Assembly: GCA_029262415.1 (NCBI GenBank)
Contig: JAJCZL010000038.1
Coordinates: forward strand, 70,137 to 134,136
Length of the DNA stretch: 64,000 bases
Direction of reading: 5' to 3'
Origin: Deltaproteobacteria bacterium
Lineage (GTDB): Bacteria; Desulfobacterota; Binatia; UBA1149; JAJCZL01
The notes under the pieces are model-generated. The model ran no database searches, was not told where the DNA came from, and saw nothing but the letters and a program-made list of their open reading frames with translations. Within the stretch, counting starts at the first letter, position 1. The number at the start of each line of letters is the position of its first letter. Below, piece after piece: positions 32,994 to 63,719 of this stretch. Made by a program: the position numbers and the translations under genes.

Positions 32994-34183
32994 GACGCCA
33001 ACTGTTTGCACGCCCAATCGATTTCGCGAACGACGGCGCCGACGACACCCTCGTTGCGGTACTGCTCGGGCAGCAGCTCCCAGGTGTAGGTCTCGATCTC
33101 CAAGTGCTGTGTAATGGGGGTGTCGCGTTGGATTGCAAGGAACGAGCGGAGAAAGTCCTGAGTACTCGCAAACGCTCCGAGCCGCCGGCGAAAGATCGGG
33201 ACGTGGAAATGAACGCGCCATTCTTCAGACGGATCCGACCCTGCGGTCGCGTGCAGGGCAGCGGGGATATCGTCGAACCTCGATAGTTTGCCGCCGCGTC
33301 GCTTGACTACCTGGTGCAAGTAGACGTCGTCGGCAAACGCGGCGAGTTGCTCGCGGGCATCACCAGGGAAACAGAGGCCGGTGCTGATCTGGACCTTGGC
33401 GATTCGGATTCCTGCGCGCTGCAAGCGATGCACAGCCTCTGCGGGGTCTTCGAACTCGACGGCGGCGTGGCAGGTATCCAGGCAAACCCCCAGATGGTTG
33501 CGCAACCGCTGTTCGGCCTCGTCCCCGCGCAGACCCGTATCGTTGGAAAAACGCGCAACGGCACGCCTCGAAAGCAGAGTCGCTTCGAAGTAGGCCGCGG
33601 CATCCGTAGTTGTCTCGAGCATACACGCCGGCTCGGGCTCGAGCGCGGTTACAATCTCGCGGCCGGTCTGCTGCGCGATCTTGTACAAGGTCGCCGCGTG
33701 CGCGAGCAGACCGTCGGCCGCTTCGGTTGCTTCGGGCTTCCCCGGTACGCGCGAGCGAAACCCGCCGGGAACAGTACTCACGCTGCCGTAGTCAACGTCT
33801 TCGGGCAAGAGCCTTGCGAGTAGCATGGCGGCGGCGTTGGAGTAGGCCACCCGCTCGGGCATCCGCCAATCGGGCAAGTAGACGTTCTCTTTGACCGGCG
33901 CGCCGTGGAATCGGCCGTACGGAAACGCGTTGATCGTAAACACGTAGATGCCCTGGTCTGAAAAGAAGCGCTGCAGTTCCTCGACCGCTTGGGGACGCGA
34001 GAGTTCTTCGACCGCGCAACCGGAGAGTCGTAGGCCGATGCCGAACGGACTTCGCGGCGCGACCTGCTGCTTGACCGCGACGCAGAAGTTTTGCAGGTTC
34101 GCGCGTACCTCGGTCCAGGTCTCGCCGGGGTGGATGTTGCTGCAGTAGCAGAGATGGACGGGCGGGCCGGTGCCGATTCTCAT
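32990..34183 (-). CDS. eboE: Xylose-isomerase-like TIM-barrel protein, EboE
   Basis: The 397-residue protein has the AP-endonuclease-2 / sugar phosphate isomerase barrel. It begins PVHLCYCSNIHPGETW, a block shared by EboE proteins. Likely metal-binding positions are in ALEPEPACMLE, GVCLDTCHAAVEFEDP, AKVQISTGL and VHFHVPIF. The substrate is unknown, but neighbours suggest it reshapes the product of the cyclase-like EboD. Both ends overlap neighbours as ATGA (eboD upstream, eboC downstream), so the three genes are tightly coupled. Confidence 0.89.
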   Translation of the reverse strand: MRIGTGPPVHLCYCSNIHPGETWTEVRANLQNFCVAVKQQVAPRSPFGIGLRLSGCAVEELSRPQAVEELQRFFSDQGIYVFTINAFPYGRFHGAPVKENVYLPDWRMPERVAYSNAAAMLLARLLPEDVDYGSVSTVPGGFRSRVPGKPEATEAADGLLAHAATLYKIAQQTGREIVTALEPEPACMLETTTDAAAYFEATLLSRRAVARFSNDTGLRGDEAEQRLRNHLGVCLDTCHAAVEFEDPAEAVHRLQRAGIRIAKVQISTGLCFPGDAREQLAAFADDVYLHQVVKRRGGKLSRFDDIPAALHATAGSDPSEEWRVHFHVPIFRRRLGAFASTQDFLRSFLAIQRDTPITQHLEIETYTWELLPEQYRNEGVVGAVVREIDWACKQLAS

Positions 34184-35740: not shown

Positions 35741-37003
35741 ATGAGCGAACTGATTCCTGTCCATGGCGGTCTTGACCGTCCCGTATCCCGAACTGTAGCC
35801 GCCGACGAGGCCGCCGACTTCATGGCCCGCGCCGCTGGTTTGAAGAAAGTTCCTGTCTCCGACGCCGACCTTTCCACGGTTTACCGCTTCGCGGACGGCA
35901 CTCTGAGTCCGCTTGTCGGGCCTATGGATCGCGAGACCTACGATCGTGTTCTCGATGAAAGTGTCATCGAGAACAACGGTGCGCTGTATGCATGGACGAT
36001 TCCCCTGTCCTTGCCTGTCAGCGCCGAGATCGCCGCTTCGATCAAGCCGGGTGAAGAGGTAGCACTGGTCGCATCGGGGGGCACCCCGGTAGCGATCCTC
36101 GAGCTCAGCGACGTGTTCGAGTTCGACAAGCCCCGTTACATCAAAGCCGTTTACGGCACCGAGCGTACCGACCACCCGGGTGCCGACATGGTGCTCGAGG
36201 GCGACGCGGGCATGACTCATCTCATCGGCGGCTCGCTACGGGCTTTGCCGCAGATCGTGAAGCCGGAGTTGCAGCGTTACGTGCTGCGTCCTGAGCAGAT
36301 CCGTAAGCTTTTGGCCGAGCGCGGATGGGACCGTGTCGTTGCGTTCCAAACCCGTAATCCGCTTCACCGTGCCCACGAGTACGCACTCATCTACGGACTC
36401 GAATCTCTTCTCCGCGCGGGGCACAACGCCGGCGCGTGCCTCAACCCACTGATCGGCGAGACCAAGGGCGACGACGTCAATGCTGCGATTCGCATGAAGA
36501 CCTATGAGACGCTGATCGAATCGCGTGAGATGGGGCAGGGCGACAGTGACCCTGAGCTCTGGGCAAAGGTTGGCGGTTCGGTTCCCGACCGGGTTATGCT
36601 TCTCGGGCTCGACATCAAGATGTTCTACGGCGGCCCTAAAGAGGCGGTCATGCACGGTATTTATCGGCAGAACTGCGGGTTTACCGATATCGTCATCGGC
36701 CGCAAACACGCCGACGCCCCGTTCGCCGACGGCACCGCCATATGGGGCGATTTCGACGCCCAAGAGATCTTCGAGAACCTCGGCGGCGACCTCCGGATCA
36801 CACCTGTCAAAGTGGGCTTTGCCGCTTACTACGAGTCGATGGGCCGCGTGGATTTGATGGAAAACCATAAAGAGGAAAAACCCGTGTTCATCTCGGGTAA
36901 AGAGGTGCGCGCGAACTTGCTGAAGGGCGAAGCTGTAGACCCACGCATCATGCGAGAGAGCACTTCGCGGATTCTGGCGGACGCGATGTCGGGCCGGGGC
37001 TGA
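35741..37003 (+). CDS. sat: Sulfate adenylyltransferase (ATP sulfurylase)
   Basis: The 420-residue homo-oligomeric type of enzyme makes adenosine 5'-phosphosulfate from ATP and sulfate, or runs in reverse. An N-terminal PUA-like domain (1-180) is followed by the catalytic domain with [11 protein letters not shown] (203-213) and [12 protein letters not shown] (classic GRDHAG). This is the Sat type, not the CysDN type. No APS kinase is fused or adjacent, so PAPS for the two sulfotransferases would need a kinase elsewhere. AAGGAG lies about 6 bases before ATG 35741. The next small gene overlaps its stop as TGATG. Confidence 0.94.
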
Positions 37004-37284: not shown

Positions 37285-40200
37285 TTACGGAACCGGTTGG
37301 AACGTTGCGGTCAGCGTGAAGGCGGTAGTACCTGCGCCTACGTCGTGTGCCCCGGCTCCCGCATCCGACCAGCCCACAAACTCATAGGTAGTCGCGCCGA
37401 CCGTTTGAGGAGACGGCGCGGAGACCGTGTTGTTCGAGTTCGCGATCACCGTTGCGTACAACGGTGTCGCTGCGCTTTCGGCGTTTATGCCGAGCTCGAG
37501 GCCGGGCGGAGATGTTTGCAAGGTGATGGTCACCGGCTGGGGCGAAACGAACACGCTTTCGGTGTCTTGTAATCCGCCGGAGTCAGTTACGGTAAGGCGG
37601 ATCTCGAGGATAGACGGGTATTCGTGGTCCGGAGCCGGTAGGCTTGCCGACGACACCCCGACAAACTGGTTGAGGAAGTGGATGTGGCAGTCTGAGGGGC
37701 AGTGGTGGAGGATAATGTCCCACACCATTGCGCTATCGGGCAGCGATCCGTCTTGGGTGTCAATGGCGGTACCTGAGAAAGCCACGCTCGAGCCGGCTCC
37801 CCAATTGTTGCCGCTTTGGAGGCTGATCGTGGCCGTAGGTGGGGTATTGCCGACGCTGATAGCGATGGTGTCGGTATCTGTTCCGCCGTTGCCGTCATCG
37901 GCCTCGAGTGTGACTACGTACGAGCCCGGCTGCGTATAATTGAACGCGGGGCTCACGGTCGTCGCATCGTTCAGTTGCCCGTCGCCGTCGAGATCCCATC
38001 GGTAACTGAGGGTGTCGCCAGGATCGCCGTCGGTAGAACTTGACGCGTCAAAGTTCACTGTCAGCGGGGCCGCCCCGTTGGTCTTGTCTGACCAGGCTAC
38101 TGCGACCGGAGGCTGGTTGCCCGGGAAATACTGGATGCGACGTAACTCACCACCAACGATGTCCACGTAGAACAGGTCGCCTTGCGGTCCGATCTGGAGA
38201 TCGACCGGCGTTTGCGCACCGGCGGAGAACGTCGCCCGTGTGGCGGGATCGGGATTGCCGTCGGTTCCGGTCTTCATCGACCATATGCAGTCTCGTGAGT
38301 AGTCCGCGAAGAACAGGGCTCCGTTGAACTCTGGCGGGTAGCCGCCTCCTTGGTAGAAGGCCACGCCCGTGGTCGCCGAGCTACCGGTTCCGCACTTCTC
38401 GCCCGGCTCGACCTGTTCAAAGTGACTGTACGTATAGAACGGGCCGGTCACGGGTGCGATGGTATCGCCGTAGAGGTTCTCGCAAATATCGAGGTTCAAT
38501 ACATCGTAGCCCTGCATGGGGGCCGGGCCCTCGTAGCACGGCCAGCCAAAGTTCGGCGGCACCGGACCAGTGGTGTCGTTGATCCTGTTGATCTCTTCCC
38601 ATTTGCCCCAGCCGACGTCGCTGATGAATACTTCTCGGGTTCCACTGCGGGCGGTCATGCGGACCGGGTTGCGCAGACCGAAAGCAATGATCGCGTCGTC
38701 GTCGGCAACGGCTCCGCCGACCAGTGGGTTATCAGGCATCGGCGCCGCGGTGATCGGGTCGATACGGATTACGGTCCCACTGTATGAGGTCGGGTCGCCG
38801 GAAGTCCGCAGGTCCTGTGCGCGCAGGGCACCGCCTTCGGCATCCGGAGGGCTGAGAAGCGCTCCCACGCCACCAGGCGGATCTCCGCAAGGATTGACGT
38901 CGGGGAAGCCGGCCTGTCCCCAGTCGCTGAAGGTGAAACTGGCACCATCGCCGCCGCTGGCCAGCAGTGCGCCGCTGTCGTCGAAGCCCAGAGCTCCGAT
39001 GGAGTGGCTCGGGAACTGTTGGCACCAGTCTTCGACCATGATGATTTCGGGTCCGAACGCGTTGTTGCCCAACGCCTCAAAACGCGAGACGCGGCCGGCG
39101 ACCACACAGCCGTCTTGTGCTCCACCCGGAGGTGAAGGGCAGGTGTCGACATCACCACCCACGGTTCCCCAGACCGGCGGCGTGCCTCCAGGAGGCGCGT
39201 CCAGCGTGTACATGACGTAGAGGTATGGGGTGGTCGGGAAGTTCGGGTGCAGCTCCAAGCCCACCAGGCCGCGGTCCCAGTAGTTATGGACGCTGGTTCG
39301 CAAGTCGACGAATATCTCGGGGGAGGTATCGTTGAGGTCGTCGAATACCTTTACTATTCCGCGCTTCTCCGCGATGAACACGCGTCCGTCGGACACGAAA
39401 CGAACCGATGTAGGTTGTACCAGTCCGGTTATCACCGCGGTGTCGAGGAAGCCGGCCGGAGTGCTCAGCCCAACCGGAACCGCGCAGCCGAGCGTGCAGT
39501 TGGCGGTGCCGGGAGGTTCGCACTCTTCGCCGGTGTCGACGACGTTGTCGCCGCAATAGGCCGGGACACAGCTGGTGCGACACGAATCGGCGGCCCCGTC
39601 GTTGTTAAGTACGCCGTCGTCACAGCCCTCGAAACCGCTGAAGATGGAACCGTCTCCGCAGGATGCCGCGACGCAGGTGCTCAGGCACGCGTCGTTGTCC
39701 GAGGTGTTGGCGTCGTCGCAATCCTCGACCCCGGTTTCGACGAAGCCGTCCCCACACGATGCGGCCGTGCAATCGTCGATACACGCGTCAAGGTTGTCGG
39801 TGTTAGCGTCGTCGCACTCCTCAGGGCCGTCGGTCACTCCGTCGCCGCAGGCCGGGAACGAACAATCGCCGCGGCAGGCATCCGGCTGCGTATCGCTATT
39901 CAGGGCGCCTGCATCGCACTCTTCGCCGCTGTCGACAGTGTCATCGCCGCAGATCGGAAGCGCGCAGCTGGTTCGGCAGGCATCAGGCGCTGTATCGCTG
40001 TTCGACGCGCCGTTGTCACACTGTTCGCTTGCGGTGAGGTTGAGCGTCCCATCCCCGCAGGTCACCACCGAACAGTCAACGTCGCATGTCGCAGACTCAC
40101 CGCCGTCGTCACAGTCCTCGCCAGCGGCAGCGTTGGTTATTGCATCGCCACATACCGCCACCGTGCAGTCAGTGTTACAGGTCGCCGATTCGCCGGCGTC

Positions 40201-43200
40201 GTCACAGGCTTCAGCGGAAACCGCGTTTACCAGACCGTCTCCACAGACGGCGGGGGTGCAGTCGGCGTCGCAAGTGCTGGAGAACCCTCCATCATCGCAC
40301 TGCTCTCCGGCGGTAACGACGGCGTTGCCGCAGGCGGTAGTGGTGCAGTTGTTGTCACATCCATCTCCGCTGGTAATGTTGCCGTCGTCGCAAACCTCGG
40401 GGGGCGCCACGATGGCGTCGCCGCACCCGGTCGGGGTGCACGTGGACTCGCAGCCATCGCCGTCTGTGGTATTTCCGTCATCGCAAGCCTCGCCCAGAGT
40501 CCGGATAGCGTTGCCGCATCCGGTCGGCGTGCAATTGGCGTCGCAGCCGTCACCGCTGTTCAGGTTGCCGTCGTCACAGCTCTCACCGACGCTCACGAGC
40601 GCATTACCACAGGCGGTGAACGTGCAGTTGGTGTCGCACCCGTCGCCTTCGATAGCGTTTGCGTCGTCGCAGGCCTCGCCGGACGTCGCATTGAGCGTGC
40701 CGTCTCCGCACAAGGCTGGAGTGCAGTTCAGGTCGCAAGTTGACGATTCACCGCCGTCGTCGCAGGACTCACCCGAAGTGATGACCCCGTTACCGCAAGC
40801 GGTGACGGTGCAGTTCGAGTCACACCCGTCGTCATCGACCAAGTTTGCGTCGTCGCATTGTTCGCCGGCGGTGGCGATTCCGTTAGCACACCCGGTCGGT
40901 TTGCAGTTCGAGTCGCAGCCATCTCCGTCGACGGTGTTGTTGTCGTCACAGGTCTCACCGGATGACGGGTTGGTTTGGCCGTCGCCGCACACCGCGGCTG
41001 TGCAGTCGGCGTTGCAGGCCGCGCTTTCGCCTGCGGCGTCGCACTCTTCGCCTGCGGCGGCGTTGGTCTTGGCATCACCGCAAACGCTGAACGTACAATC
41101 GTCGTTGCACGTCGTGCTTTCTCCGGCGTCATCGCATTCTTCGTTGCCGTTGTTGACGAGTCCGTCCCCGCACAGTTCCTCAAGGCAGGTAGGGCCGCAG
41201 CCGTCCCCGGCCAGAGTGTTGCCGTCTTCGCATTGTTCGTCGGATGTGAAGATAGCATCACCGCAGACATGCGAGATTCCGTAAATGAGGAGCTCGGCGA
41301 TCGACGTGAAGTCGTGCGCACCACCTGGTTGGCCGGCGATCCTGATGCCGTCGCCTTCGACGGCATCGAAGTCGAAGACGTAGGTATTGTAGTTCACACC
41401 GTCGTTGATTGCCGGGTACAAGGGGGTGGACGCGAACCCGGTGACGGCGTTCCATGTCCCGTTTTGCAGGATCTCGACAGTGATTGTTTCAAACCAGCCG
41501 CCGTCCGAATAGTGCTTGCCCTCTTGGAAGATCACTTGGCGGAAGGTCTGCGATGACAGGTACTGGTATCCCATCCATTCAAACGATGACGCAACCGCGC
41601 CATCGAACGTGTCGTATTGGCGGTTGCCCTGAGTGGATCCCGCAGGCGGCATATCACCGTCGCGGATCACCTCGGGGTCTTTATTCCCGCCGCCTGTCGG
41701 GGTTGGAACCGATACGATTATCGTCCCGAGCTGGGTAATGTCGTCGGGTGCACGGTCGGCACAGGTGTCGTCGCAAACCGCAGTGCCGGGCGGGTCGCAC
41801 TGCTCTCCGTCGTTGACGATCCCGTCATTGCAGAATTCGATTACACAGGTGCCGTTACAGCCATCACCGGCAGCGGTGTTGGCGTCGTCGCACTCTTCGC
41901 CCGCCGCGCCATTAAGGACGCCGTCGCCGCACAGCGGGAAACTGCAGTCGGTATCGCATGCAGCAGTGGCACCGCCGCCGTCGCACTGTTCCCCAGCCGC
42001 TGCGTTGAGAACCAGATCGCCGCAAACGACTTGCGTGCAGTCGGTGTCGCAATTCGAGGTTTCGCCACCGTCGTCGCACTGCTCGCCTTGGGTGAGGATC
42101 CCGTTCCCGCAAGCCGTGGCTGTACAATTTGAATCGCACCCGTCGTCGTCGGTGAGGTTGCCGTCGTCGCAGGCCTCGCCGACGGTCACTACCCCGTTAC
42201 CGCATGAGGTCGCCGTGCAGTTCGAGTCGCAGCCGTCATCGTCGGTGGTGTTGGCGTCGTCACACTCCTCGTTCGGGGCGGTGACGCCGTTACCGCAGGC
42301 GCTCGGGGTGCAGTTTGCGTCGCAACCGTCGCCGCTGGCCGCGTTTCCGTCGTCGCATTGTTCGCCTGCATCGATGGCGCCGTTTCCGCAAAGGGTTGTA
42401 GAACAGGTGGCACTGCAGGTGTCGCCGCCGATGAGGTTTCCGTCGTCGCACTCTTCGCCAAAGGTGATGATGCCGTTTCCACACGCCGTGGGCGTGCAGT
42501 TTGCATCGCAGCCGTCGCCGCTGGCCGTGTTGGTGTCGTCACACACCTCGGGGGGCGTAACGAACGAGTCGCCGCACAAAGGCGCGCGTGCGGCGCAGTT
42601 TGCGGCGCACGTCGCGGTGTTGGGCGGCTCGCAAGTCTCGCCGATGACGGTGTTGACAGTGCCGTCGCCGCAGCTGGGCGGCGTGCAGTCACTGTCGCAG
42701 GTGGCGGAGACGCCTGCGGTGTCGCATTGTTCGCCGGCCGTTGCGTTGTGGTTGCCGTCGCCGCATTGAACCGACGTGCAGTCATCGTCGCACGTGGCGC
42801 TTTCACCGCCGCTGTCGCAGGCCTCGGCAGCGCTTGCGTTAACGAACCCATCGCCGCAGATCGAGAAGGTGCAGTCGGGGTCGCAGGCCGACGACTCACC
42901 GATGCTGTCGCAGTCTTCGCCGTTGTTCGCGATGCCGTCGCCGCAGAACTCGACTGTGCACGCCGAACTACAGCCGTCTCCGTCGAAGTTATTACCGTCG
43001 TCGCAGCCTTCGGGCGAGGTAGAGATTCCGTCGCCGCAGACATGGGCGTAACCGAAGACCTCGAGTTCGGCGGTAGAGATGAAGTCGGCAAAGCCGCCGG
43101 GGTCACCGTATATCCGGATGGCGTCGCCCTCTATGGGATCGAAGTCGAATGTGTAGGTTTCAAAGTTGACACCGTCATTGAACGCTGGGTACGGCGGTGT

Positions 43201-46200
43201 TTCGGTCAAGCCTGTGACGATTTCCCACACGCCGCTTCTGAGCACCTGCACGGTCACAGCATCGAACCAACCACCGCTGCCGAAGTGCTTTCCTTCCTGC
43301 CAGACGACTCGAGTGAAAGTCGCTGGTCCGCCGTACGCGTACCCGATCCAGTCGTCGGCAGCGGGCGTGTTACCGTCATAAGAATCAAACTGTCTGGACG
43401 AGCTGTTGTTTCCGACCGGCGGTTTGTCGCCGTCTCGGATAATCTCGATATTCTTGCTTCCGCCGCCGGTGGGGAAGGGCACGCGTGCGATGGAGCTGCC
43501 GAGTTGGGTGAGATTCTCCAACGCACGGACCGTGCAACTGGACGAACATGTAGGCGTGCCTGGCGGTTCGCACCCTTCTGTCCCGTTGACGATGCCGTCT
43601 CCGCAACTTTCGGTCGCGCAGGCGGCCGAGCAGCCATCATCGTTCGCGGTATTGCCGTCGTCGCATGCTTCGCCGGCCGTTGAGTTGAGGCTTCCGTCGC
43701 CGCAGACCGCCGCCGTGCAGTCTAGGTCGCAGACGGCCGATTCTCCGCCGTCGTCGCAAGTCTCACCGGCCGCGCTGTTCAGTGTGCCGTCGCCGCAAAC
43801 CGCCGGAGTGCAGTCAGTGTCGCACGAGGCTGACTGACCGGCAGTGTCACAGCTCTCACCGGCAGTGACGTTGGTTACACCGTCGCCGCAGACCGCCGCC
43901 GTGCAGTCTAGGTCGCAGACGGCCGATTCTCCACTGTCGTCGCAGGTCTCTCCGGCTGCGCTGTTTTGCGTGCCGTCCCCGCAGCCGGCAATCGTGCAAT
44001 CGGTATCGCAAGATGCGCTCTCGCCTCCCGTATCGCAAGTCTCGCCCGCAGCGGTGTTGGTAAGGCCGTCGCCACACGCAGCGAAGGTGCAGTCGACGTC
44101 ACAAGTCACAGACTGCCCGGCGGTGTCGCACTGTTCCGAGCCGTCAAGTTGACCGTTTCCGCATAGGGTTAGCGTGCAGGTCGAAGTGCACGCGTCCCCG
44201 TTGTTGATGTTGCCGTCGTCGCATTCTTCGCCGGCGGAAACAATGCCGTTTCCGCACGTGGTTACGGAGCAGTTCGAATCACAACCGTCGCCGTCGATCG
44301 TATTGCTGTCGTCGCAAGCCTCACCGGCAGCGGTGTTGAGCGTTCCATCTCCGCAAGCGGGGAGGGTGCAATCGCCGTCGCATGCGGCGGTTTGCGCACC
44401 CGAGTCGCAGGCCTCGCCCGCAGCCGGATTGAATATCCCGTCGCCGCACACAGGCGCAGTGCAGTCAGTGTCGCACGAGGCCGAGGCGCCGCCGGAGTCA
44501 CACACTTCGCCCGCAGTCGGGTTGAAGGTGCCGTCGCCGCAGGCAGCCGGAGTACAGTCGCTGTCGCAGGTGATCGACTCTCCGGCATCGTCGCACTGCT
44601 CGCCGGTGGTCACGATACCGTTCCCGCATACCGTGATGCTGCAGTCGGAGTCACAGCCGTCACCGTCGGCAAGATTGCCGTCGTCACACGCTTCGCCGGC
44701 GGTGGCCACGCTGTTGCCACACGCCGTGAAGGTGCAGTTGGTGTCGCAGCCGTCGCCCTCGATCGCGTTGCCGTCATCGCATTGCTCGGATGCGCTATTG
44801 ACGATACTGTCGCCGCAGACTTCGGTCGTACAGCCCGCGCTACACCCGTCGCCGCCCACGCTGTTGCCGTCGTCACATTCCTCTGCCGAACTCAGGACGC
44901 CGTCGCCGCAATATTCGCTGAATCCGTAGACCAGGAGTTCACCGACAGAGATGAAATCGTTGAACCCGCCGGGATCGCCGAAAAGCCGGATCGCCTGGCC
45001 GGCGATAGGCTGAAATTCGAATGCGTAGCTCTCAAACGTGACGCCGTCGTTGAAGCCCGGGTAGGTGGGTGTGTCGGTGAGGCCGGAAACGTTGACCCAG
45101 GCACCGTTCTGCCTGACCTGCACAGTGAGCGCGTCGAACCAACCACCGCCGGAGAAGTGGCGACCCTCTTGGAAAAATAGGCTTGCGAACAGGCGCGTGC
45201 TCGGGAAGTCGTAGCCTATCCAATCGTCTGCAGCTGCACTGCTTCCATCGTAGGTGTCGTATTGCCGCCGGGAAGTATTGGTTCCGATCGGTGGGATGTC
45301 ACCATCGCGGATAATCTCGATGTTGTGGTTTCCGCCACCGGTCGGTGCGGTGACGCGTGCAATAACGATCGCCTCCTGCGTCATGTCGATCGGTAGCACC
45401 AGTTGGCAGCCGGCGTCGCAATAGGTGGTGCCGGGAGGGTCGCATTGCTCGCCGTTGTTGACGATTCCGTCGCCGCAGGTCTCGACAGCGCAACTCGGGC
45501 CGCAACCGTCGTCGGATGTCGTGTTCCCGTCGTCGCATGCCTCACCGGCCGCAGAATTCAACGTGGCGTCCCCGCAGATGGGAGAGGTGCAGTCGGGGTC
45601 ACACGTGGCGCTGGTGCCCCCGTCGTCGCATTCTTCTCCAGCCGTCTGGTTTACGTTTGCATCGCCGCACGCGGCAGCAGAGCAATCGCTGTCGCAGGCC
45701 GCGCTTTCGCCGCTGTCATCACAAAACTCGGGCGCTGTCACGATTCCGTTACCACAGGCGGTCGGTGTGCAATTGGAGTCACACCCGTCGCCGCTGGCGC
45801 CGTTACCGTCATCGCAAGCTTCGGGCGTTGTCAGGATCCCGTTACCGCAGGCGGTCGGGGTACAGTTGGAATCGCAGCCGTCACCATCTGCGCCATTGCC
45901 GTCATCGCAGGTCTCGGGCGTTGTCACGATCCCGTTACCGCAGCCGGTCGGGGTACAATTGAAGTCGCACCCGTCGCCGTTCGCGACATTGCCGTCGTCG
46001 CAGGCCTCGCCGGCGTCAAGGTTGCCGTTGCCACACGCCGTGATGGTGCACGCCGAGCTGCAAGCATCGTTTTCGTCTAGGTTACCGTCATCACACTCTT
46101 CGCCGGCGGTGACGATGGTGTTGCCGCAAGCGGTAGGCGTACAGTTAGAGTCGCACCCGTCGCCATCGACCGTATTGGTGTCGTCACAAAGCTCGGGCGG

Positions 46201-47280
46201 CGTGACGAATGTGTCGCCGCACAGGGGAGCACGTGTACCGCAGTTCGAGTCGCAGGTTGCCGTCAATGGAGGCTCACACTGCTCACCACGGGTTTGGTTG
46301 AGGACGCCGTCGCCGCAGCCCGCGACAGTGCAGTCGATATCGCAGCCGAAAGTTTCGCCGCCCGCGTCGCACTGTTCGCCGGCGCTGTTGTTCGTCGTTC
46401 CGTCCCCGCACGTAACCCCGGTGCAGTCGGCGTCGCAGGTCGGCGACTCGCCTGCATCGTCGCATTCTTCGCCGGCGGCCACGTTAGTCACAGCGTCGCC
46501 GCAAGCGGGGACTGTGCAGTCGGTATCGCAGGCGGCTGACTGACCGCCGTCATCGCAAGCCTCGCCGGCGCTCGGGTTGAGTTTCGCATCGCCGCAAACG
46601 GCGAAGGTGCAGTCGGTGTTGCAGGCGGCTGACTCGCCGGCATCATCGCATTGCTCGCTGCCGGGATTGACGACGCCGTCTCCGCACACGTGTTGAACGC
46701 CGAACACGCGTAGTTCGCCGACGGAGGTAAACTCGTTCGCGCCGCCTGGGGTGCCGAAAATGCGGATACCGTCGGCAACAACTGGGTCGAAGTCGAGCGT
46801 GTAGGTTTGAAAACTCACGCCGTCGTTGAGGCCGGGGTACGGGGGGGTATCTACGAGTCCGGCCGCATCGCCCCACACACCGCCGACGCGCACCTGTACC
46901 TTCAGGTCCAAGAACCAGCCGCCGTCGCTAAAGTGACGCCCTTCCTGGAACACCATTTGGGTGAAGGTGATTGGTGCCGCGAAGGTGTAGCCGTACCAAT
47001 CGTCCGCAGCTTGGTTACTGCCGTCCCAGGAATCGTACTGTCGGCTGGATTGGGTGTTTCCGACCGGTGGTGTATCGCCGTCACGAATGACTTCGATATC
47101 CTTATTTCCACCCCCACGAGGCGCCGTCACCTTTACAATCGGGGCACCGGCGGCCGTGAGATCGACGGAACTCTGTGCCCATGTCCGCCCGGGGGCGGCA
47201 ATAAGTGCCGCGAGCAGCAAAATACTGGTAGCCGGCAGCGCGTATCTATAGGGAGGACGTTTGTCGCAGAAATGCATCAT
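37285..47280 (-). CDS. Giant secreted disulfide-rich protein with discoidin-like modules, PQQ dehydrogenase-like propeller and PKD domain
   Basis: The uninterrupted frame encodes about 3,331 residues. A signal peptide (1-35, ending TWA) is followed by four F5/8-type-C (discoidin)-like modules, each opening with a PxGGGxKxxEVIRDGD pattern; these lie near 46.7-47.16, 44.9-45.4, 43.0-43.5 and 41.3-41.7 kb. After them come blocks of 14, 15, 14 and 19 CGDG-type repeats, about 62 in all, each ~30 residues with four Cys. A PQQ-dependent sugar dehydrogenase-like propeller (about 38.1-39.5 kb; GLVGLELHPNF, FGLRNPVRM, ISDVGWGKWEEIN) then precedes a PKD domain and a C-terminal beta domain. It is probably a surface or matrix protein that binds carbohydrate. 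ATG 47280 (MMHF) is chosen over GTG 47313; the exact start is uncertain. Confidence 0.88.
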   Translation of the reverse strand: MMHFCDKRPPYRYALPATSILLLAALIAAPGRTWAQSSVDLTAAGAPIVKVTAPRGGGNKDIEVIRDGDTPPVGNTQSSRQYDSWDGSNQAADDWYGYTFAAPITFTQMVFQEGRHFSDGGWFLDLKVQVRVGGVWGDAAGLVDTPPYPGLNDGVSFQTYTLDFDPVVADGIRIFGTPGGANEFTSVGELRVFGVQHVCGDGVVNPGSEQCDDAGESAACNTDCTFAVCGDAKLNPSAGEACDDGGQSAACDTDCTVPACGDAVTNVAAGEECDDAGESPTCDADCTGVTCGDGTTNNSAGEQCDAGGETFGCDIDCTVAGCGDGVLNQTRGEQCEPPLTATCDSNCGTRAPLCGDTFVTPPELCDDTNTVDGDGCDSNCTPTACGNTIVTAGEECDDGNLDENDACSSACTITACGNGNLDAGEACDDGNVANGDGCDFNCTPTGCGNGIVTTPETCDDGNGADGDGCDSNCTPTACGNGILTTPEACDDGNGASGDGCDSNCTPTACGNGIVTAPEFCDDSGESAACDSDCSAAACGDANVNQTAGEECDDGGTSATCDPDCTSPICGDATLNSAAGEACDDGNTTSDDGCGPSCAVETCGDGIVNNGEQCDPPGTTYCDAGCQLVLPIDMTQEAIVIARVTAPTGGGNHNIEIIRDGDIPPIGTNTSRRQYDTYDGSSAAADDWIGYDFPSTRLFASLFFQEGRHFSGGGWFDALTVQVRQNGAWVNVSGLTDTPTYPGFNDGVTFESYAFEFQPIAGQAIRLFGDPGGFNDFISVGELLVYGFSEYCGDGVLSSAEECDDGNSVGGDGCSAGCTTEVCGDSIVNSASEQCDDGNAIEGDGCDTNCTFTACGNSVATAGEACDDGNLADGDGCDSDCSITVCGNGIVTTGEQCDDAGESITCDSDCTPAACGDGTFNPTAGEVCDSGGASASCDTDCTAPVCGDGIFNPAAGEACDSGAQTAACDGDCTLPACGDGTLNTAAGEACDDSNTIDGDGCDSNCSVTTCGNGIVSAGEECDDGNINNGDACTSTCTLTLCGNGQLDGSEQCDTAGQSVTCDVDCTFAACGDGLTNTAAGETCDTGGESASCDTDCTIAGCGDGTQNSAAGETCDDSGESAVCDLDCTAAVCGDGVTNVTAGESCDTAGQSASCDTDCTPAVCGDGTLNSAAGETCDDGGESAVCDLDCTAAVCGDGSLNSTAGEACDDGNTANDDGCSAACATESCGDGIVNGTEGCEPPGTPTCSSSCTVRALENLTQLGSSIARVPFPTGGGSKNIEIIRDGDKPPVGNNSSSRQFDSYDGNTPAADDWIGYAYGGPATFTRVVWQEGKHFGSGGWFDAVTVQVLRSGVWEIVTGLTETPPYPAFNDGVNFETYTFDFDPIEGDAIRIYGDPGGFADFISTAELEVFGYAHVCGDGISTSPEGCDDGNNFDGDGCSSACTVEFCGDGIANNGEDCDSIGESSACDPDCTFSICGDGFVNASAAEACDSGGESATCDDDCTSVQCGDGNHNATAGEQCDTAGVSATCDSDCTPPSCGDGTVNTVIGETCEPPNTATCAANCAARAPLCGDSFVTPPEVCDDTNTASGDGCDANCTPTACGNGIITFGEECDDGNLIGGDTCSATCSTTLCGNGAIDAGEQCDDGNAASGDGCDANCTPSACGNGVTAPNEECDDANTTDDDGCDSNCTATSCGNGVVTVGEACDDGNLTDDDGCDSNCTATACGNGILTQGEQCDDGGETSNCDTDCTQVVCGDLVLNAAAGEQCDGGGATAACDTDCSFPLCGDGVLNGAAGEECDDANTAAGDGCNGTCVIEFCNDGIVNDGEQCDPPGTAVCDDTCADRAPDDITQLGTIIVSVPTPTGGGNKDPEVIRDGDMPPAGSTQGNRQYDTFDGAVASSFEWMGYQYLSSQTFRQVIFQEGKHYSDGGWFETITVEILQNGTWNAVTGFASTPLYPAINDGVNYNTYVFDFDAVEGDGIRIAGQPGGAHDFTSIAELLIYGISHVCGDAIFTSDEQCEDGNTLAGDGCGPTCLEELCGDGLVNNGNEECDDAGESTTCNDDCTFSVCGDAKTNAAAGEECDAAGESAACNADCTAAVCGDGQTNPSSGETCDDNNTVDGDGCDSNCKPTGCANGIATAGEQCDDANLVDDDGCDSNCTVTACGNGVITSGESCDDGGESSTCDLNCTPALCGDGTLNATSGEACDDANAIEGDGCDTNCTFTACGNALVSVGESCDDGNLNSGDGCDANCTPTGCGNAIRTLGEACDDGNTTDGDGCESTCTPTGCGDAIVAPPEVCDDGNITSGDGCDNNCTTTACGNAVVTAGEQCDDGGFSSTCDADCTPAVCGDGLVNAVSAEACDDAGESATCNTDCTVAVCGDAITNAAAGEDCDDGGESATCDVDCSVVTCGDGTLNLTASEQCDNGASNSDTAPDACRTSCALPICGDDTVDSGEECDAGALNSDTQPDACRGDCSFPACGDGVTDGPEECDDANTDNLDACIDDCTAASCGDGFVETGVEDCDDANTSDNDACLSTCVAASCGDGSIFSGFEGCDDGVLNNDGAADSCRTSCVPAYCGDNVVDTGEECEPPGTANCTLGCAVPVGLSTPAGFLDTAVITGLVQPTSVRFVSDGRVFIAEKRGIVKVFDDLNDTSPEIFVDLRTSVHNYWDRGLVGLELHPNFPTTPYLYVMYTLDAPPGGTPPVWGTVGGDVDTCPSPPGGAQDGCVVAGRVSRFEALGNNAFGPEIIMVEDWCQQFPSHSIGALGFDDSGALLASGGDGASFTFSDWGQAGFPDVNPCGDPPGGVGALLSPPDAEGGALRAQDLRTSGDPTSYSGTVIRIDPITAAPMPDNPLVGGAVADDDAIIAFGLRNPVRMTARSGTREVFISDVGWGKWEEINRINDTTGPVPPNFGWPCYEGPAPMQGYDVLNLDICENLYGDTIAPVTGPFYTYSHFEQVEPGEKCGTGSSATTGVAFYQGGGYPPEFNGALFFADYSRDCIWSMKTGTDGNPDPATRATFSAGAQTPVDLQIGPQGDLFYVDIVGGELRRIQYFPGNQPPVAVAWSDKTNGAAPLTVNFDASSSTDGDPGDTLSYRWDLDGDGQLNDATTVSPAFNYTQPGSYVVTLEADDGNGGTDTDTIAISVGNTPPTATISLQSGNNWGAGSSVAFSGTAIDTQDGSLPDSAMVWDIILHHCPSDCHIHFLNQFVGVSSASLPAPDHEYPSILEIRLTVTDSGGLQDTESVFVSPQPVTITLQTSPPGLELGINAESAATPLYATVIANSNNTVSAPSPQTVGATTYEFVGWSDAGAGAHDVGAGTTAFTLTATFQPVP
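39500..46690 (-). repeat. Array of ~62 coding cysteine repeats in four blocks
   Basis: Read on the minus strand, the repeats follow C-G-[DN]-x6-12-[EQ]-x-C-D-x8-12-C-x3-C with a spacing of about 85-95 bases. They belong to the Myxococcus cysteine-rich / DUF4215 type. Two subtypes alternate: a short form with GESxxCDxDC and a calcium-loop-like form with DGNxxDGDGCDxxC. Discoidin-like modules at about 45.4-44.9, 43.5-43.0 and 41.7-41.3 kb interrupt the array. Confidence 0.9.
43694..43932. repeat. 53-bp exact direct repeat pair inside the giant gene
   Basis: The segments 43694-43746 and 43880-43932 are identical over 53 bases and start 186 bases (62 codons) apart. Both encode the repeat core GESAVCDLDCTAAVCGDG. 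Identity at synonymous sites points to a recent two-repeat duplication or gene conversion, while most other repeats have diverged. Confidence 0.85.
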
Positions 47281-47544
47281 CACTGTCGCAGTGGCTATCC
47301 TTGGGCAGAGCACAGCGCAGGGCCGGGGCGCCCTCGGCTGTCACAGGTTTCCCGGGGGCCGGTACTCCCTATGTCCGAAATCGCACAATACTCCTGTTTA
47401 GAACACTAATAGTCAATGAACTCGAATGTCGAGACGGTTATTTGCAGCGGTACGAAAACGGACGAATTTATCCCCCTGGGGTAGTGTATGCCTGCTCAAA
47501 TGGGGGGGCGGTGTTCGCTGAAGCGTCCCTTGCGTGTGTCGAGA

Positions 47545-55393: not shown

Positions 55394-58324
55394 ATGTCCA
55401 CCGTCCGCATTCCTGCCGTTCTCTCCGTGTTGCTCGTCGCGCTCGCGGCGCTTCTGATCCGCTCACCGGCGTCGGTCCCTGCGCAGGCAGAGGAAGAGCT
55501 GACTCAAGTCGGAACTCCGATCGCCAAGGTGACGGCACCCACCGGAGGTGGCAGCAAGAACATCGAAACGATCCGTGACGGCGTGCGCCCTGTGGTCGGC
55601 TCGACCAGCTCATTGCTTCAATACGACACCTTTGACGGTGGGAGTAACGCGCTCGACGACTGGATCGGTTACAGCTTTGCGAACCAACATACATTCACGC
55701 GGATGGAGTTCCAGGAGGGGCGTCATTTTTTGGATTCCGGTGGCTGGTTCGTTTCTTTGACGGTGCAGGTTCGCAACGGTGGGGTGTGGCAAGACGTCAG
55801 CGGCTTGGTTTCGCTGCCGGCCTATCCAGGAGTCAACGATGGCGTCAATTTTGAGTCTTACTCACTGACCTTCGCTCCGATGACCGGTGACGGAATCCGC
55901 CTGTACGGTGCACCCGGCGGGCCCAGCGGCTTCATCTCGGTTGCCGAACTCGGCGTTTTCGGCATGACCGGCAGTTGCGGCGACGGCATCGTCAGTCCAG
56001 GTGAGCAGTGCGACGCAGGCGGACAGTCTTCGTCCTGCGACAGTGACTGTACATTCGCCGTCTGCGGAGACGGTACGTTGAACCCGACAGCTGGGGAGGC
56101 GTGCGACGACGGCAACGCCGTCGATGGCGACGGCTGCGATTCCGACTGTGCACCGACCGGCTGCGGCGACGGCGTTGCGGTGTTCCCCGAGGAATGCGAC
56201 GACGCCAACAGCATTAACGGCGATGGCTGCTCGTTTGCATGTCTTTTGGAAGACGAGCGTGGCTTGTGCGCCGGCGTAAGCTCCGGCCCAGCAACGAGCT
56301 TGAACGCAGTGCTGGTCGCCAGTGGGCTCGGGCGCGCCCTCGATATTCAGGCCCCTCCGCTGGATCCCCATAGGCTTTTCGTCGCTACCCAGACCGGAGA
56401 AATCCGCCTGATTAAGAACGGAACGCTCCTTCCACAGCCGTTTTTGGATGTCTCCAGCCTCACAACCTGCTGCGGTGAGCGCGGTTTGCTTGGGCTGGCA
56501 TTCCATCCCGACTACGAGAACAACCGTCGTTTCTTCGTTCACTATACCAATCCCTCCGGTAACAATGTGATCGCACGCTACGATCGCAGCGTCGGCGACC
56601 CCGATGTGGCTGATTTCGGATCGGGGGTGGTGCTCTTTACAGTCACCCAGCCGGGCGCAAATCACCAAGGTGGCCAACTCGCGTTCGGCCCCGATGGTTA
56701 CCTCTATACTGCGATCGGAGACGGCGGGGGTGGAAGCGCGGGCCGCGGTGCTGCGCAGGCTGACGACAGCCTGCTCGGCAAGGTTTTGCGTATCGACGTT
56801 GACGTCGACGCGCCGCCTTACTACGCCGTGCCGCCGGACAATCCGGGTACCGCCGGAGCACCGCTCGGGCTCATTTGGGGCCGCGGGCTCCGCAATCCTT
56901 GGCGCTTCAGTTTCGACCGCGCCAACGGCGACCTCTACATCGCTGACGTCGGCGAGGTCGATTGGGAAGAGATCAACTACGAACCGGCCGCCAGCATCGG
57001 TGCAAATAACTTCGGCTGGCCGATCTGGGACGGTGACAGCAACTGTTTCCAGCCGATAGCGCCTGCTGACTGCGACTCGACCGCCGGCTACGAGATGCCT
57101 TTGTACGCCTACGACCACTCATTCGGCTGTTCGGTAACCGGCGGTTATGTGTACCGGGGCTGTGCGATGCCGAGCCAGAACGGGCGCTACTTCTTCGGAG
57201 ATTACTGCTCCGCCCGCGTGTTCAGTTTCGTGGCCAACGGGCAGACCCCGTCCAGCGTTAGCGAACACACCGCCGCGCTTGCTCCGGGTGGGGGTATCTC
57301 AATTGCGCAGATCTCGGCTTTTGGCCAGGACGCGCGCGGCGAGATCTACATTGCCGATCTGGGCGGAGAGGTATTCAGGATCGTCCCGGCGGCTGGAGTA
57401 TGCGGCGACGGAATTCAGCAAACAGGTGAACAATGCGACGACGCTGGACAAAGCGTCACTTGCGACGCCGATTGCACCTTCGCCGTCTGTGGGGATGGTT
57501 CGTTGAACACCGCTGCGGGGGAGAGCTGTGACGACGGCAACGGCACCAGTGGCGACGGCTGCGATGCTAACTGCACGCCGACCGGTTGCGGCAATGCTAT
57601 CGTCACGTTAGGCGAGTCGTGCGACACCGGTGGCGAGTCGGCATCGTGTGATGCCGACTGTTCTGCTGCGGTTTGCGGTGACGGAACCCTAAACTTGTCG
57701 GCCGGCGAACTATGTGATGACGGTAACACCCTGAACGGTGACGGGTGTTCGTCGCAGTGTGTCCCCGAGGTCTCGCCGACCGTTTGCGGCGATGCGAACT
57801 CGGACGACCGGGTTACCGCCTCCGACGGTCTGATCATCCTCAAGAATTCGGTCGGCCAGTCGGTGGCATGTCCCGATTTTCTCTGCGACGCGGACGGTAA
57901 TGGCTTGGTCAGCGCGAGCGATGCGAACATCGTTCTCCAGACATCCGTCGGGCTCGGGCCGCCGTTGAACTGTCCCGCGATGCCGGGGATTCTCTTTTCC
58001 CTAGAGTCTGGAGAGAGGCTCGGAGCGCTGCAGGTTTCGGTCGACTATGCGACGGCTCCCGGCGATTTCGACGGTACGGGTGGCGGGGTGCTGTGTCAGT
58101 CATTGATCAGTGGGGCTACCGCAAGCTTCAACAAGGCGCCTGGTCGTTTCTTGAACGCGAGCATCGCGTCGGTAACGGGATTCCAAGGACCCAAGAGCTT
58201 GTTCTACTGCGACTTCACGGCCGCCGGTTCTCTGGCACCGTCACAGTTCGTGGTCGCGGTAGTTGACGCGGTGGACATCGCAGACCGGCCGGTTGCACCG
58301 TTCATAACGGTGCGCGTGCCATAA
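55394..58324 (+). CDS. Secreted discoidin-like / cysteine-repeat / PQQ sugar dehydrogenase-like / dockerin-like protein
   Basis: The 976-residue protein is a short relative of the giant one. In order: signal peptide (1-33), one discoidin-like module (about 35-200, AKVTAPTGGGSKNIETIRDG), three CGDG repeats, a PQQ-dependent sugar dehydrogenase-like propeller (about 300-675), four more CGDG repeats, a dockerin-like pair and a C-terminal beta domain. The propeller shows CGERGLLGLAFHPDY, GANHQGGQLAFGPDGYLY, GRGLRNPWRFSFD and ADVGEVDWEEINYEP, with the active-site histidine present. The dockerin-like pair is CGDANSDDRVTASDG and CDADGNGLVSASDAN. The last domain is shared with 12213-13478. It could oxidise aldoses at the surface if PQQ is available. 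Confidence 0.88.
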   Translation: MSTVRIPAVLSVLLVALAALLIRSPASVPAQAEEELTQVGTPIAKVTAPTGGGSKNIETIRDGVRPVVGSTSSLLQYDTFDGGSNALDDWIGYSFANQHTFTRMEFQEGRHFLDSGGWFVSLTVQVRNGGVWQDVSGLVSLPAYPGVNDGVNFESYSLTFAPMTGDGIRLYGAPGGPSGFISVAELGVFGMTGSCGDGIVSPGEQCDAGGQSSSCDSDCTFAVCGDGTLNPTAGEACDDGNAVDGDGCDSDCAPTGCGDGVAVFPEECDDANSINGDGCSFACLLEDERGLCAGVSSGPATSLNAVLVASGLGRALDIQAPPLDPHRLFVATQTGEIRLIKNGTLLPQPFLDVSSLTTCCGERGLLGLAFHPDYENNRRFFVHYTNPSGNNVIARYDRSVGDPDVADFGSGVVLFTVTQPGANHQGGQLAFGPDGYLYTAIGDGGGGSAGRGAAQADDSLLGKVLRIDVDVDAPPYYAVPPDNPGTAGAPLGLIWGRGLRNPWRFSFDRANGDLYIADVGEVDWEEINYEPAASIGANNFGWPIWDGDSNCFQPIAPADCDSTAGYEMPLYAYDHSFGCSVTGGYVYRGCAMPSQNGRYFFGDYCSARVFSFVANGQTPSSVSEHTAALAPGGGISIAQISAFGQDARGEIYIADLGGEVFRIVPAAGVCGDGIQQTGEQCDDAGQSVTCDADCTFAVCGDGSLNTAAGESCDDGNGTSGDGCDANCTPTGCGNAIVTLGESCDTGGESASCDADCSAAVCGDGTLNLSAGELCDDGNTLNGDGCSSQCVPEVSPTVCGDANSDDRVTASDGLIILKNSVGQSVACPDFLCDADGNGLVSASDANIVLQTSVGLGPPLNCPAMPGILFSLESGERLGALQVSVDYATAPGDFDGTGGGVLCQSLISGATASFNKAPGRFLNASIASVTGFQGPKSLFYCDFTAAGSLAPSQFVVAVVDAVDIADRPVAPFITVRVP

Positions 58325-61178: not shown

Positions 61179-63395
61179 CTATGGCAGGTTGTTGAATTCA
61201 TGCCGGCTGAGGAACCAGCCGTGGCGCACTTTCCGCCAAGGCGCCGTGATCGATGCCCCGTCGTTGCCGATAACCACGTGTGTTGTCATCTCGGCAACGG
61301 TCGCCGCGGAGAAGTCTCCAAATGCACGTAGGCGGAACGCATACTTGTTGGCGTTCGGCTTGTATTTGATCACCAGGTAGTAGATTCCGTCGCGGAATCC
61401 GCGGCCCCGACGTGCGCCGCGGTCGCGGAACTTAAACTTTTTGCCTTTCGGGTGTGCCTGGATGTCAGACCCGCGCACAAAGCCCGTGTACACGATGCCT
61501 GATGCATTGGTGATCTGCACCTGGAATCCGTCGATGCCGGGCTCTACAGTTGTCTGTGGGATGAACTGTGCGTGCATCTGGAAGGCGTCGAGCGAGACGT
61601 CGTCATCGTAGAAGCGGATTCTTGCCGGATCCGACTGCGGTTTCTCGCAAGCTGTGACCGGTAAGCAATCAGCACCGCAGGTCGTGGCTCCAACCGGGCA
61701 GTCGATGAGGTCAGCACAATCGACTAACCCGTCGTTGTCATCGTCGGTCATGTTGTTGCAGATCTCAACGTCACCGGGATCGCAGGTTTCTTCCGGGCGG
61801 TTTACGAGGCCGTCACCGCAGAACGCGCAGCGGCAGCCGTGTGCGCCCGACGATTCGAGACAGTTGGCGGGGCACGCGGTGTCGTCGACCCCGTCGCACT
61901 CCTCGTTGCTTTCTCTTACGTCGTTACCGCAGACCGCGCACTGACATTCGGTTGCAGTGCCGACCGGTTGGCAAGCACCGGGGCAGGCCGTAGCATCGAC
62001 GCCGTCGCATTGCTCTGAAGCCTGATTGACCACGCCGTCGCCGCAAGCCGCACACCTACACTCGTTGGCACCTCCGGCGGTTTGGCAGGCTCCGGGGCAG
62101 GCGGCGTCATCGGCACCGTCGCACTGCTCGTCGCCCGCGGTTACGCCGTCGCCGCAAACCGGGCAGCCGCACATGTTGTCGCACTGGCCGGGGCAAGCCG
62201 CATCGGCTGTCCCATCGCAGACCTCTCCCTGCTCGATCGTGTCGTTGCCGCATACGGAGCACGAGCAATCGGTCTGGCATGCGCCCGCCGTGCACTGGCC
62301 GTCATCGGTACCGTCGCACTGCTCGTTGCCTTCGCGGACGTTGTCGCCGCAGAGCGGGCAGCTGCAATCGGATTGGCACTCGCCGGGGCACGAGCTATCG
62401 GCGCTACCGTCACAGCTCTCGGTGCCGTTGACGACGCCGTCGCCGCAAACCGGGCTACATGTGCAATCGATTTCACATCCGCCGAGACACGTTCCAGTCT
62501 GTGCTCCGTCGCAGATCTCGCTGCCGTTGATCACATCGTCGCCGCAGACCGGGCTACATGTGCAATCGGGTTCACAGCTGCCTAGGCAGGATCCGGCGTC
62601 GGTCCCGTCGCACTGCTCGTTGCCTTCGATCTGGTCGTTGCCGCATACACCACCGGCCGGGCCGAAGGCGAAGTCGTTGGGGACGGCGCAGTTTTCGGAA
62701 CGTAGGAGAGGTAAGTACTTGCCGGTTTCGAGGGCGTTGTCGGGGCGCTCCTCGCAGGTGAAGGTACCGTCCAGGTTGCCGAGTACTTGGCCCTCAGGGA
62801 AGGGGCCGTCCGCGGCATCGCAAAAGTCAGCGTCGAGGTTTCCGTCAAGCGGGCGAACCCCTTCGATCGGTGTTATCAACTCGTCGCAGTCAGGCGGAAG
62901 AGTTGTCTGGTCGACTGTGATCTCGCAAGCCCAGGGGGCCGGGCTCTGCGCACAGCCGTCTCCCGCACCATTGATCAGCCAAGGGTTAAAAAGATAGCGG
63001 CCTTTGACGTCGTTCGGATCAAGCGGGTCGTATGCGAGCAGTGGCCCGCAAAGGTTGTAGAAATTGCCGAGACCGCCGACCTCTGCAGTAGTGGTCTGGC
63101 CGGTGATTGTCGTCCGGTCTAGGCACTGAACGCCGTTACGGTCGCGGCAGACCATGCGAACCGTGACCCCGTCGATGCCCGTCTCGCCGAGTGTGGGCTC
63201 GTAGATTCCGTTGCGGTTGGTGTCGCAGAACACTAGGTCGCCGGTAAATGTGGCCCACCCGATCGAGGGGGTGCCGAAGATTAGAGCTGTGCACGCGCCA
63301 GCAGCGACAAAAATGCCACGCAGCATCGTCGGGTTGCGGGCACAAGAACGAATCGTGGTTGCACTCTTTTGGAGTTCTCTGGTTCTCATTCGCAT
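61179..63395 (-). CDS. Secreted protein with SdrD-B-like domain and nine six-cysteine repeats
   Basis: The product has about 738 residues. After a signal sequence (hydrophobic IFVAAGACTALIFG) comes a domain resembling SdrD B / prealbumin-like folds (TFTGDLVFCDTNRNGIYEPT, about 50-120). A region of unknown family follows, then eight full CG-type repeats of a six-Cys variant (CGDxxxxGxEQCDGTxxxxCxGxCxxDCxC) and a ninth altered one (about 255-590). The C-terminal ~150 residues form a beta domain ending in SLDAFQMHAQFIP...WRKVRHG. ATG 63395 is the likeliest start; ATGs at 63389 and 63326 are possible and the long frame to 63602 is not used. It is probably a surface or matrix protein. Confidence 0.82.
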   Translation of the reverse strand: MRMRTRELQKSATTIRSCARNPTMLRGIFVAAGACTALIFGTPSIGWATFTGDLVFCDTNRNGIYEPTLGETGIDGVTVRMVCRDRNGVQCLDRTTITGQTTTAEVGGLGNFYNLCGPLLAYDPLDPNDVKGRYLFNPWLINGAGDGCAQSPAPWACEITVDQTTLPPDCDELITPIEGVRPLDGNLDADFCDAADGPFPEGQVLGNLDGTFTCEERPDNALETGKYLPLLRSENCAVPNDFAFGPAGGVCGNDQIEGNEQCDGTDAGSCLGSCEPDCTCSPVCGDDVINGSEICDGAQTGTCLGGCEIDCTCSPVCGDGVVNGTESCDGSADSSCPGECQSDCSCPLCGDNVREGNEQCDGTDDGQCTAGACQTDCSCSVCGNDTIEQGEVCDGTADAACPGQCDNMCGCPVCGDGVTAGDEQCDGADDAACPGACQTAGGANECRCAACGDGVVNQASEQCDGVDATACPGACQPVGTATECQCAVCGNDVRESNEECDGVDDTACPANCLESSGAHGCRCAFCGDGLVNRPEETCDPGDVEICNNMTDDDNDGLVDCADLIDCPVGATTCGADCLPVTACEKPQSDPARIRFYDDDVSLDAFQMHAQFIPQTTVEPGIDGFQVQITNASGIVYTGFVRGSDIQAHPKGKKFKFRDRGARRGRGFRDGIYYLVIKYKPNANKYAFRLRAFGDFSAATVAEMTTHVVIGNDGASITAPWRKVRHGWFLSRHEFNNLP

Positions 63396-63719
63396 ACTCA
63401 CGTTAGCCCTTGTAAAACTGGCGTTTGTGCTCCACCTTTCATCCCAGGCGTAGGCCAAGGAGCGGCAGCCGAGGGCTGGCGCCCCGCCGGCGTCATGCCG
63501 CCACCTTCGGCCGCGCGCGACTCTCGAGCCCTCTGCTGATTCGAGCCTAGCTAGCCTAACTCGGCGGGTCCACACAATACAAGGCATGCCGGCGTTTTCC
63601 ATTCGTGATTTCCGGGGCTTCCCCCATTCGGGTCAGGACTGCGCGCGCGCGTCTACGGTGTCAGTTAAGGTGGTGCACGTAACGACACCTGCGTGCAGGT
63701 GGAGCCGCGGGAGGAGTAT
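63396..63719. other. Divergent intergenic region at the right end
   Basis: The 324-base region lies between the leftward cysteine-repeat gene and the rightward GT87-like gene. I see no gene. TTGTAAAACTGGCG near 63410 loosely resembles the reverse complement of the shared 18-base motif. A run of GCGCGCGCG lies around 63642. Confidence 0.4.

Follow-up and report, generated by a model that had tools for sequence, protein, structure and literature searches.

Six-bladed propellers of the PF07995 family include soluble glucose dehydrogenase (sGDH) of Acinetobacter and the Asd enzyme YliI, in which Lys377, Arg406, and Arg408 (sGDH numbering) form a cationic clamp on the carboxylates of PQQ. In sGDH, Arg228-Asn229 lies at the quinone oxygens of PQQ. 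The Gly247-Pro248 calcium loop of the PQQ enzymes acts through main-chain carbonyls (PMC6881789). It is known that a fungal AA12 enzyme binds PQQ with a changed clamp (PMC4133262, PMC6881789). Its structure showed that Lys377 and Arg408 are dispensable when other residues substitute for them; Lys377 is lost and another arginine is used for PQQ, while Arg228 and the Arg406 equivalent (Arg621) are kept (PMC6881789). The residues expected of an AA12 PQQ dehydrogenase include Arg273 as well as Arg621. The animal protein HHIP is a secreted decoy whose propeller and EGF repeats bind heparin and Hedgehog (PMC8660895). Dockerin and cohesin proteins are also known outside cellulosomes (PMC9012536 and works cited there).

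In the window (the whole 64,000-nucleotide stretch of DNA analysed here), the ORF at 55394-58324 was present exactly as the earlier note described it. It encodes a GSDH-propeller protein, referred to as A, in which a signal-peptide-like N-terminus, a discoidin domain, three cysteine repeats, the propeller, four cysteine repeats, a dockerin, and a cohesin fold follow one another:

55394..58324, + strand: whole gene of A, 976 aa, ATG start (Pfam, NCBIfam, sequence)
55394..55489, + strand: signal-peptide-like N-terminus, residues 1-32 (sequence reading; AF2 helix 9-20)
55490..55972, + strand: discoidin (F5/8-C-like) domain, residues 33-193 (62% identical to one of the discoidin domains in the giant protein described below)
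55976..56242, + strand: three four-cysteine repeats (DUF4215 / myxo_disulf_rpt), residues 195-283 (Pfam, NCBIfam)
56267..57388, + strand: six-bladed GSDH / HHIP-like propeller, residues 292-665 (Pfam, AF2, Foldseek, tree)
57401..57760, + strand: four four-cysteine repeats, residues 670-789 (NCBIfam, cysteine pattern)
57776..57976, + strand: type-I dockerin, residues 795-861 (calcium-loop motifs DANSDDRVTASD and DADGNGLVSASD; profile matches)
57977..58321, + strand: predicted cohesin-fold beta-sandwich, residues 862-976 (AF2, Foldseek; PF00963 without a match)

The propeller is sandwiched between repeat blocks as had been claimed, with three repeats (residues 195-283) before it and four (670-789) after it. 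Pfam matched GSDH (PF07995) to residues 326-617 (E 5e-35), DUF4215 to three stretches (E 7.8e-21), and the dockerin (E 2.9e-4), and the NCBIfam model myxo_disulf_rpt (TIGR02232) was matched with an E-value of 2e-36. The tandem four-cysteine repeats score well over the curated cut-offs of DUF4215 and TIGR02232, and no mention of DUF4215 was found in the literature searched. The discoidin domain of A, scanned alone with Pfam, gave no match; F5/8-C was matched by Pfam in the giant protein, one discoidin domain of which is 62% identical. Protein A is probably secreted and is disulfide-rich. The same module order, with more repeats, was found in a 1349-aa protein (L042) of a second Candidatus Binatia genome. 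Thus, the architecture is not due to chance; it is real and conserved. The last cysteine repeat of A (57665-57787, residues 758-798) has human pappalysin-1 as a PDB match (E 1e-4) and is a four-cysteine repeat shared with this animal protein. A different cysteine repeat (CGDxxxExxEQCDG...), which neither TIGR02232 nor DUF4215 matches, was observed in an 807-aa secreted-looking protein at 61179-63602 of the window, together with an SdrD_B-like stretch near its N-terminus.

The same window encodes the giant protein, whose propeller belongs to another GSDH clade than that of A:

37285..47313, - strand: giant protein, 3342 aa, with discoidin domains, DUF4215 repeats, a propeller, and PKD (Pfam)
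38122..39468, - strand: propeller of the giant protein, residues 2616-3064 (Pfam, alignment, tree)

The two propellers share 26% identity. As had been noticed, the two proteins combine their modules in different orders, the giant one having F5/8-C, 17 DUF4215 stretches, GSDH (2836-3048), and PKD. The genome (3.9 Mb, 97% complete) has five GSDH proteins, namely A, B, C, the giant protein, and E. Paralogue B (591 aa) consists of an N-terminal dockerin, a Thr-rich linker, one repeat, and the propeller, and paralogue C (726 aa) of repeats and the propeller. A conserved cassette, in which a cysteine repeat leads straight into the propeller, is common to A, B, and C. Protein E (L021 3-5369, G000:C7; 1789 aa, with a frame that begins at a contig end) is the sister of the giant protein and has a discoidin domain, DUF4215, a giant-type propeller, PKD, and cytochrome c domains with four CxxCH motifs. 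The nearest named relatives of the A propeller are in Candidatus Binatia genomes.

Two features had gone unmentioned in the earlier note: the different clades of the two window propellers and the dockerin plus cohesin-fold C-terminus of A. In the dockerin, 12-residue calcium loops at 800-811 and 832-843 are each followed by a helix in the AF2 model, at modest confidence. PF00404 was matched above its cut-off when the dockerin was scanned as a separate domain, and a PDB profile also matched a dockerin. For the dockerin and the C-terminal domain modelled together from an alignment of 16 sequences, the pLDDT was about 95 in the C-terminal domain and 50-70 in the dockerin. In a Foldseek search against the PDB, cohesins or cohesin-dockerin chains made up nearly all of the top 24 matches of the C-terminal domain. 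The best match (E 3.6e-4, prob 1.00) was a cohesin from Archaeoglobus fulgidus that is not part of a cellulosome, with TM-scores of the cohesin matches being moderate (0.43/0.55). The cohesin family PF00963 matched nothing, neither in the genome nor among the 16 aligned domains, and a sequence-profile search with the C-terminus of A gave dockerins and no cohesins. Thus, it is the predicted fold that suggests a cohesin-like domain.

I found 69 matches to the dockerin plus cohesin-like region in the genome, which by coverage correspond to about 58 dockerins and about 18 cohesin-like domains, seven of the latter being in tandem with a dockerin. A 626-aa protein has the scaffoldin-like order of cohesin-like, cohesin-like, dockerin, and cohesin-like. 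Such matches number 15-91 per genome in all 13 examined genomes of the same order, and most other families of the class had none. Pairing between the dockerins and cohesin-like domains of these proteins is predicted. Further proteins of the dockerin/cohesin system were observed at 12213-13478 and 10446-11930 of the window and as L024.

Is the pocket of the propeller that of a PQQ enzyme? The A propeller was aligned with sGDH (a reference sequence identical to PDB 1C9U) and YliI from E. coli K-12, and residue conservation was counted over 80 relatives from many phyla. Full-length A was also modelled with AF2; the model is confident for the propeller only, where the pLDDT is mostly above 90. The alignment points to the following sites:

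56663..56665, + strand: H424, equivalent to the catalytic His144 of sGDH, kept in 77/80 relatives
56891..56896, + strand: R500-N501, equivalent to Arg228-Asn229 of sGDH, kept in 79/80 and 76/80; HHIP lacks the pair
57206..57208, + strand: C605, in place of the PQQ-clamp residue Lys377
57308..57316, + strand: Q639 and S641, in place of the PQQ-clamp residues Arg406 and Arg408

H424 is the histidine of the GANHQGG motif, whose retention had been proposed and is borne out here. In addition, E526 corresponds to the kept Glu253, and G520 to Gly247 of the calcium loop (glycine in 78/80 relatives). The neighbouring Pro248 is E521 in A and glutamine in 72/80 relatives, and E362 stands for Gln76. Thus, a pocket of His, Arg-Asn, Glu, and Gly would be kept in A, as judged from the alignment. 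The cationic PQQ contacts fared otherwise; of the four, only Arg228 (R500) is kept, while Lys377, Arg406, and Arg408 have become Cys, Gln, and Ser. This is general among the relatives: at the three clamp sites, basic residues are absent from 71/80, one is present in 9/80, and two in 0/80. Cysteine is found at the Lys377 site in 60/80 relatives. In contrast, all three basic residues are present in sGDH, YliI, and 3A9G. The arginine of the CSGRIW motif was considered as a substitute for Lys377, but it is missing from paralogues B and C and was therefore discarded. Arg327, Arg466, Arg504, and Arg588 are weak candidates for alternative PQQ contacts, all four being kept in HHIP, a non-enzyme.

Since the pocket is strongly constrained and yet the cationic PQQ clamp is lost, it is as likely as it is not, in my estimation, that A is a dockerin/cohesin-assembled surface protein and that the pocket of its HHIP-clade propeller works on a sugar or polymer outside the cell, with no canonical PQQ involved. 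The pocket would bind, or act on, an extracellular sugar or polysaccharide, the discoidin domain would be the adhesive part, and the cysteine repeats may form a rigid, protease-resistant stalk. Through its dockerin, A would attach to other surface proteins at their cohesin-like domains, and its own cohesin-like domain would accept another dockerin, making A a link in a lineage-specific surface network.

The likeness of the propeller to HHIP raises a rather unlikely alternative: a pure binding module, which merely binds a polymer or a protein and whose pocket residues have a structural role. Among solved structures HHIP comes closest, being the best PDB match by sequence (E 2.8e-26) and occupying ranks 1-16 by fold (Foldseek, PDB), with better E-values than Asd and sGDH. 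The target-normalised TM-score is nevertheless higher for Asd (0.83) than for HHIP (0.66), despite the better E-value of HHIP. In a quick ML tree, with a partial, long-branched HHIP sequence and a careful tree search unfinished, 81 rows (A, B, C, 77 relatives, and HHIP) were split from sGDH, YliI, 2ISM, and 3A9G with a support of 99, and the giant protein and E formed a third group (support 100). Thus, the A propeller appears to be part of a clade that is widespread in bacteria and clusters with animal HHIP, apart from sGDH and Asd. Given the role of HHIP as a heparin- and Hedgehog-binding secreted decoy, a comparable binding role is conceivable for A. In the bacterial clade, however, the two residues of the Arg-Asn pair lost in HHIP are conserved at 95-99%, and this speaks for a functional pocket; because the bacterial members retain the pair, their pocket is evidently under selection for something.

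The gene neighbourhood also bears on this alternative. The gene of A is divergent to a sulfotransferase gene (PF13469) heading a minus-strand run, in which genes for a WecG/TagA-type transferase, a polysaccharide deacetylase, a heparinase II/III-like protein, a glycosyltransferase, and UDP-glucose dehydrogenase are also found. An ATP sulfurylase gene lies at 35741-37000, and chain-length and EPS transferase genes lie at 22.5-28 kb. The sulfotransferase, UDP-glucose dehydrogenase, heparinase-like, deacetylase, and ATP sulfurylase genes fit a sulfated uronic-acid polymer that a binding module could recognise, and the polysaccharide cluster beside A possibly makes a sulfated, uronic-acid-containing exopolymer; for the function of A, this is no more than context. 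On the other hand, paralogues B and C sit in unrelated neighbourhoods, which weakens the exopolysaccharide synteny as an argument. The stretch 13484-55226 was observed to be an exopolysaccharide cluster with an XrtA-type chain-length determinant and ATPase. At 32064-34183, EboE adjoins an EboC/SCO3242-type prenyltransferase, apparently as part of an ebo metabolite-traffic cluster.

It was also assessed whether the genomes could supply PQQ. PQQ could be scavenged; E. coli has YliI and lacks PQQ synthesis. The PqqE family matches generic radical-SAM proteins everywhere at a low score, and only matches above the cut-off were counted. Neither PqqC nor PqqE was found above the cut-off in the 97%-complete genome, whereas both were matched in the genomes of relatives that served as positive controls (G015 and G020). 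PqqC was above the cut-off in 0/31 searchable genomes with propeller relatives, including the carriers of haem fusions, while the controls matched; many of these genomes are metagenome bins, so that single absences are weak and their sum less so. In a sample of 148 genomes of the phylum, PqqC was above the cut-off in only one, which lacks the propeller, and in 0/12 of those with strong propeller matches, a co-occurrence that is statistically weak by itself with PqqC in 1/148. Protein A would be free of PQQ.

These results make it unlikely that A is a surface PQQ sugar dehydrogenase that scavenges PQQ, holds it with a changed clamp as AA12 does, and passes electrons to a separate cytochrome. 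The catalytic-type His, the Arg-Asn pair, and the calcium-loop Gly are kept, AA12 provides a precedent (PMC4133262, PMC6881789), and cytochrome c domains with four CxxCH motifs occur in E. Three relatives from Anaerolineales and Phycisphaerae (L117, L119, and L061) carry an HHIP-clade propeller and cytochrome c-like CxxCH domains in one chain, two of them (L119 and L061) with DUF4215 repeats beside the haem-fused propeller; this suggests that part of the family transfers electrons. Against this, Lys377, Arg406, and Arg408 are all lost in A, and the Arg406 equivalent that AA12 keeps as Arg621 is Gln639 in A. The genome lacks pqqC/E, 31/31 relative-bearing genomes lack pqqC, haem-fusion carriers included, and a sequence scan found no CxxCH motif in A. 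Because AA12 manages without Lys377 and Arg408, the loss of the clamp lowers the chance of PQQ binding rather than ending it, and PQQ may still be bound by a changed clamp. A may have a scavenged-PQQ or other redox role, since haem domains are fused to some relatives. A redox enzyme that holds a different cofactor or a metal where PQQ would sit is more improbable still: the conserved clamp-less pocket, the haem fusions, and the cysteine at the Lys377 site in 60/80 relatives (C605 in A) would suit it, but the fusions are just 3/80 and nothing observed points directly to another cofactor.

The earlier note had proposed a matrix-attached sugar oxidase. The analysis supports a GSDH propeller with a catalytic-type His, carried by a discoidin protein that is secreted, disulfide-rich, and probably retained on the cell surface; it does not support classical PQQ-dependent oxidation, three of the four cationic contacts being lost and PqqC/PqqE missing from the genome. 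As far as can be computed, both PQQ-binding residues and PQQ synthesis are missing, which the earlier note had named as grounds for refutation, and the PQQ sugar-oxidase reading is weakened. What underlies the GSDH enzyme name of A is the fold together with part of the pocket. The preferred reading, a surface-assembled propeller working without canonical PQQ, draws on modules, clade, lost clamp, missing pqqC/E, and dockerin number, all of which are read from sequence. More tentatively, and with considerable doubt, this Binatota order might display HHIP-like propellers on a cryptic dockerin/cohesin network, and these, together with a large bacterial "PQQ sugar dehydrogenase" clade, might use a conserved His/Arg-Asn pocket for chemistry or recognition that does not depend on PQQ. 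Secreted propellers of this multi-phylum clade are named glucose/sorbosone or PQQ sugar dehydrogenases by the family model, yet they lack the clamp and occur in genomes without PQQ synthesis; the name at stake is carried by many genes. The function of a member would show which bacterial activity neighbours animal HHIP. The dockerin/cohesin-like system, if true, would give uncultured bacteria a network for surface assembly to which the standard cohesin model is blind, with no sign of a cellulosome.

How does A compare with the known systems? Like sGDH and Asd, it has a six-bladed propeller with equivalents of His144, Arg228-Asn229, Gly247, and Glu253. In contrast to them, Lys377, Arg406, Arg408, Pro248, and Gln76 are replaced, the clade is separate, pqqC/E are absent from the genome, and the propeller is fused to cysteine repeats, a discoidin domain, a dockerin, and a cohesin fold. 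The fungal AA12 pyranose dehydrogenase (CcPDH) and A share the six-bladed propeller with His and Arg-Asn kept and Lys377 lost, and a cytochrome fusion is found in AA12 itself and, on this side, in some relatives of A. Unlike A, AA12 retains the Arg406 equivalent and adds other residues, and its fold match is far weaker (6JT5, rank 36). HHIP and A have in common the ERGLL motif, Arg327, Arg466, Arg504, and Arg588, and in both the propeller is flanked by cysteine-rich modules, while Arg500-Asn501 of the bacterial clade is His-Asp in HHIP and the accessory domains differ. Proteins with tandem four-cysteine repeats, as in A, are known from DUF4215 and the TIGR02232 myxo disulfide repeat; in A, however, the repeats stand on both sides of a GSDH propeller and are combined with a dockerin system. 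The non-cellulosomal proteins of Archaeoglobus fulgidus (2XDH) and ANME archaea (PMC9012536) likewise have dockerins and a cohesin fold without a cellulosome, and scaffoldin-like proteins with several cohesin-like domains occur in those systems and in this genome. Here, in contrast, the cohesin-like domains escape PF00963, the dockerins have extra cysteines, and both are linked to disulfide repeats and propellers.
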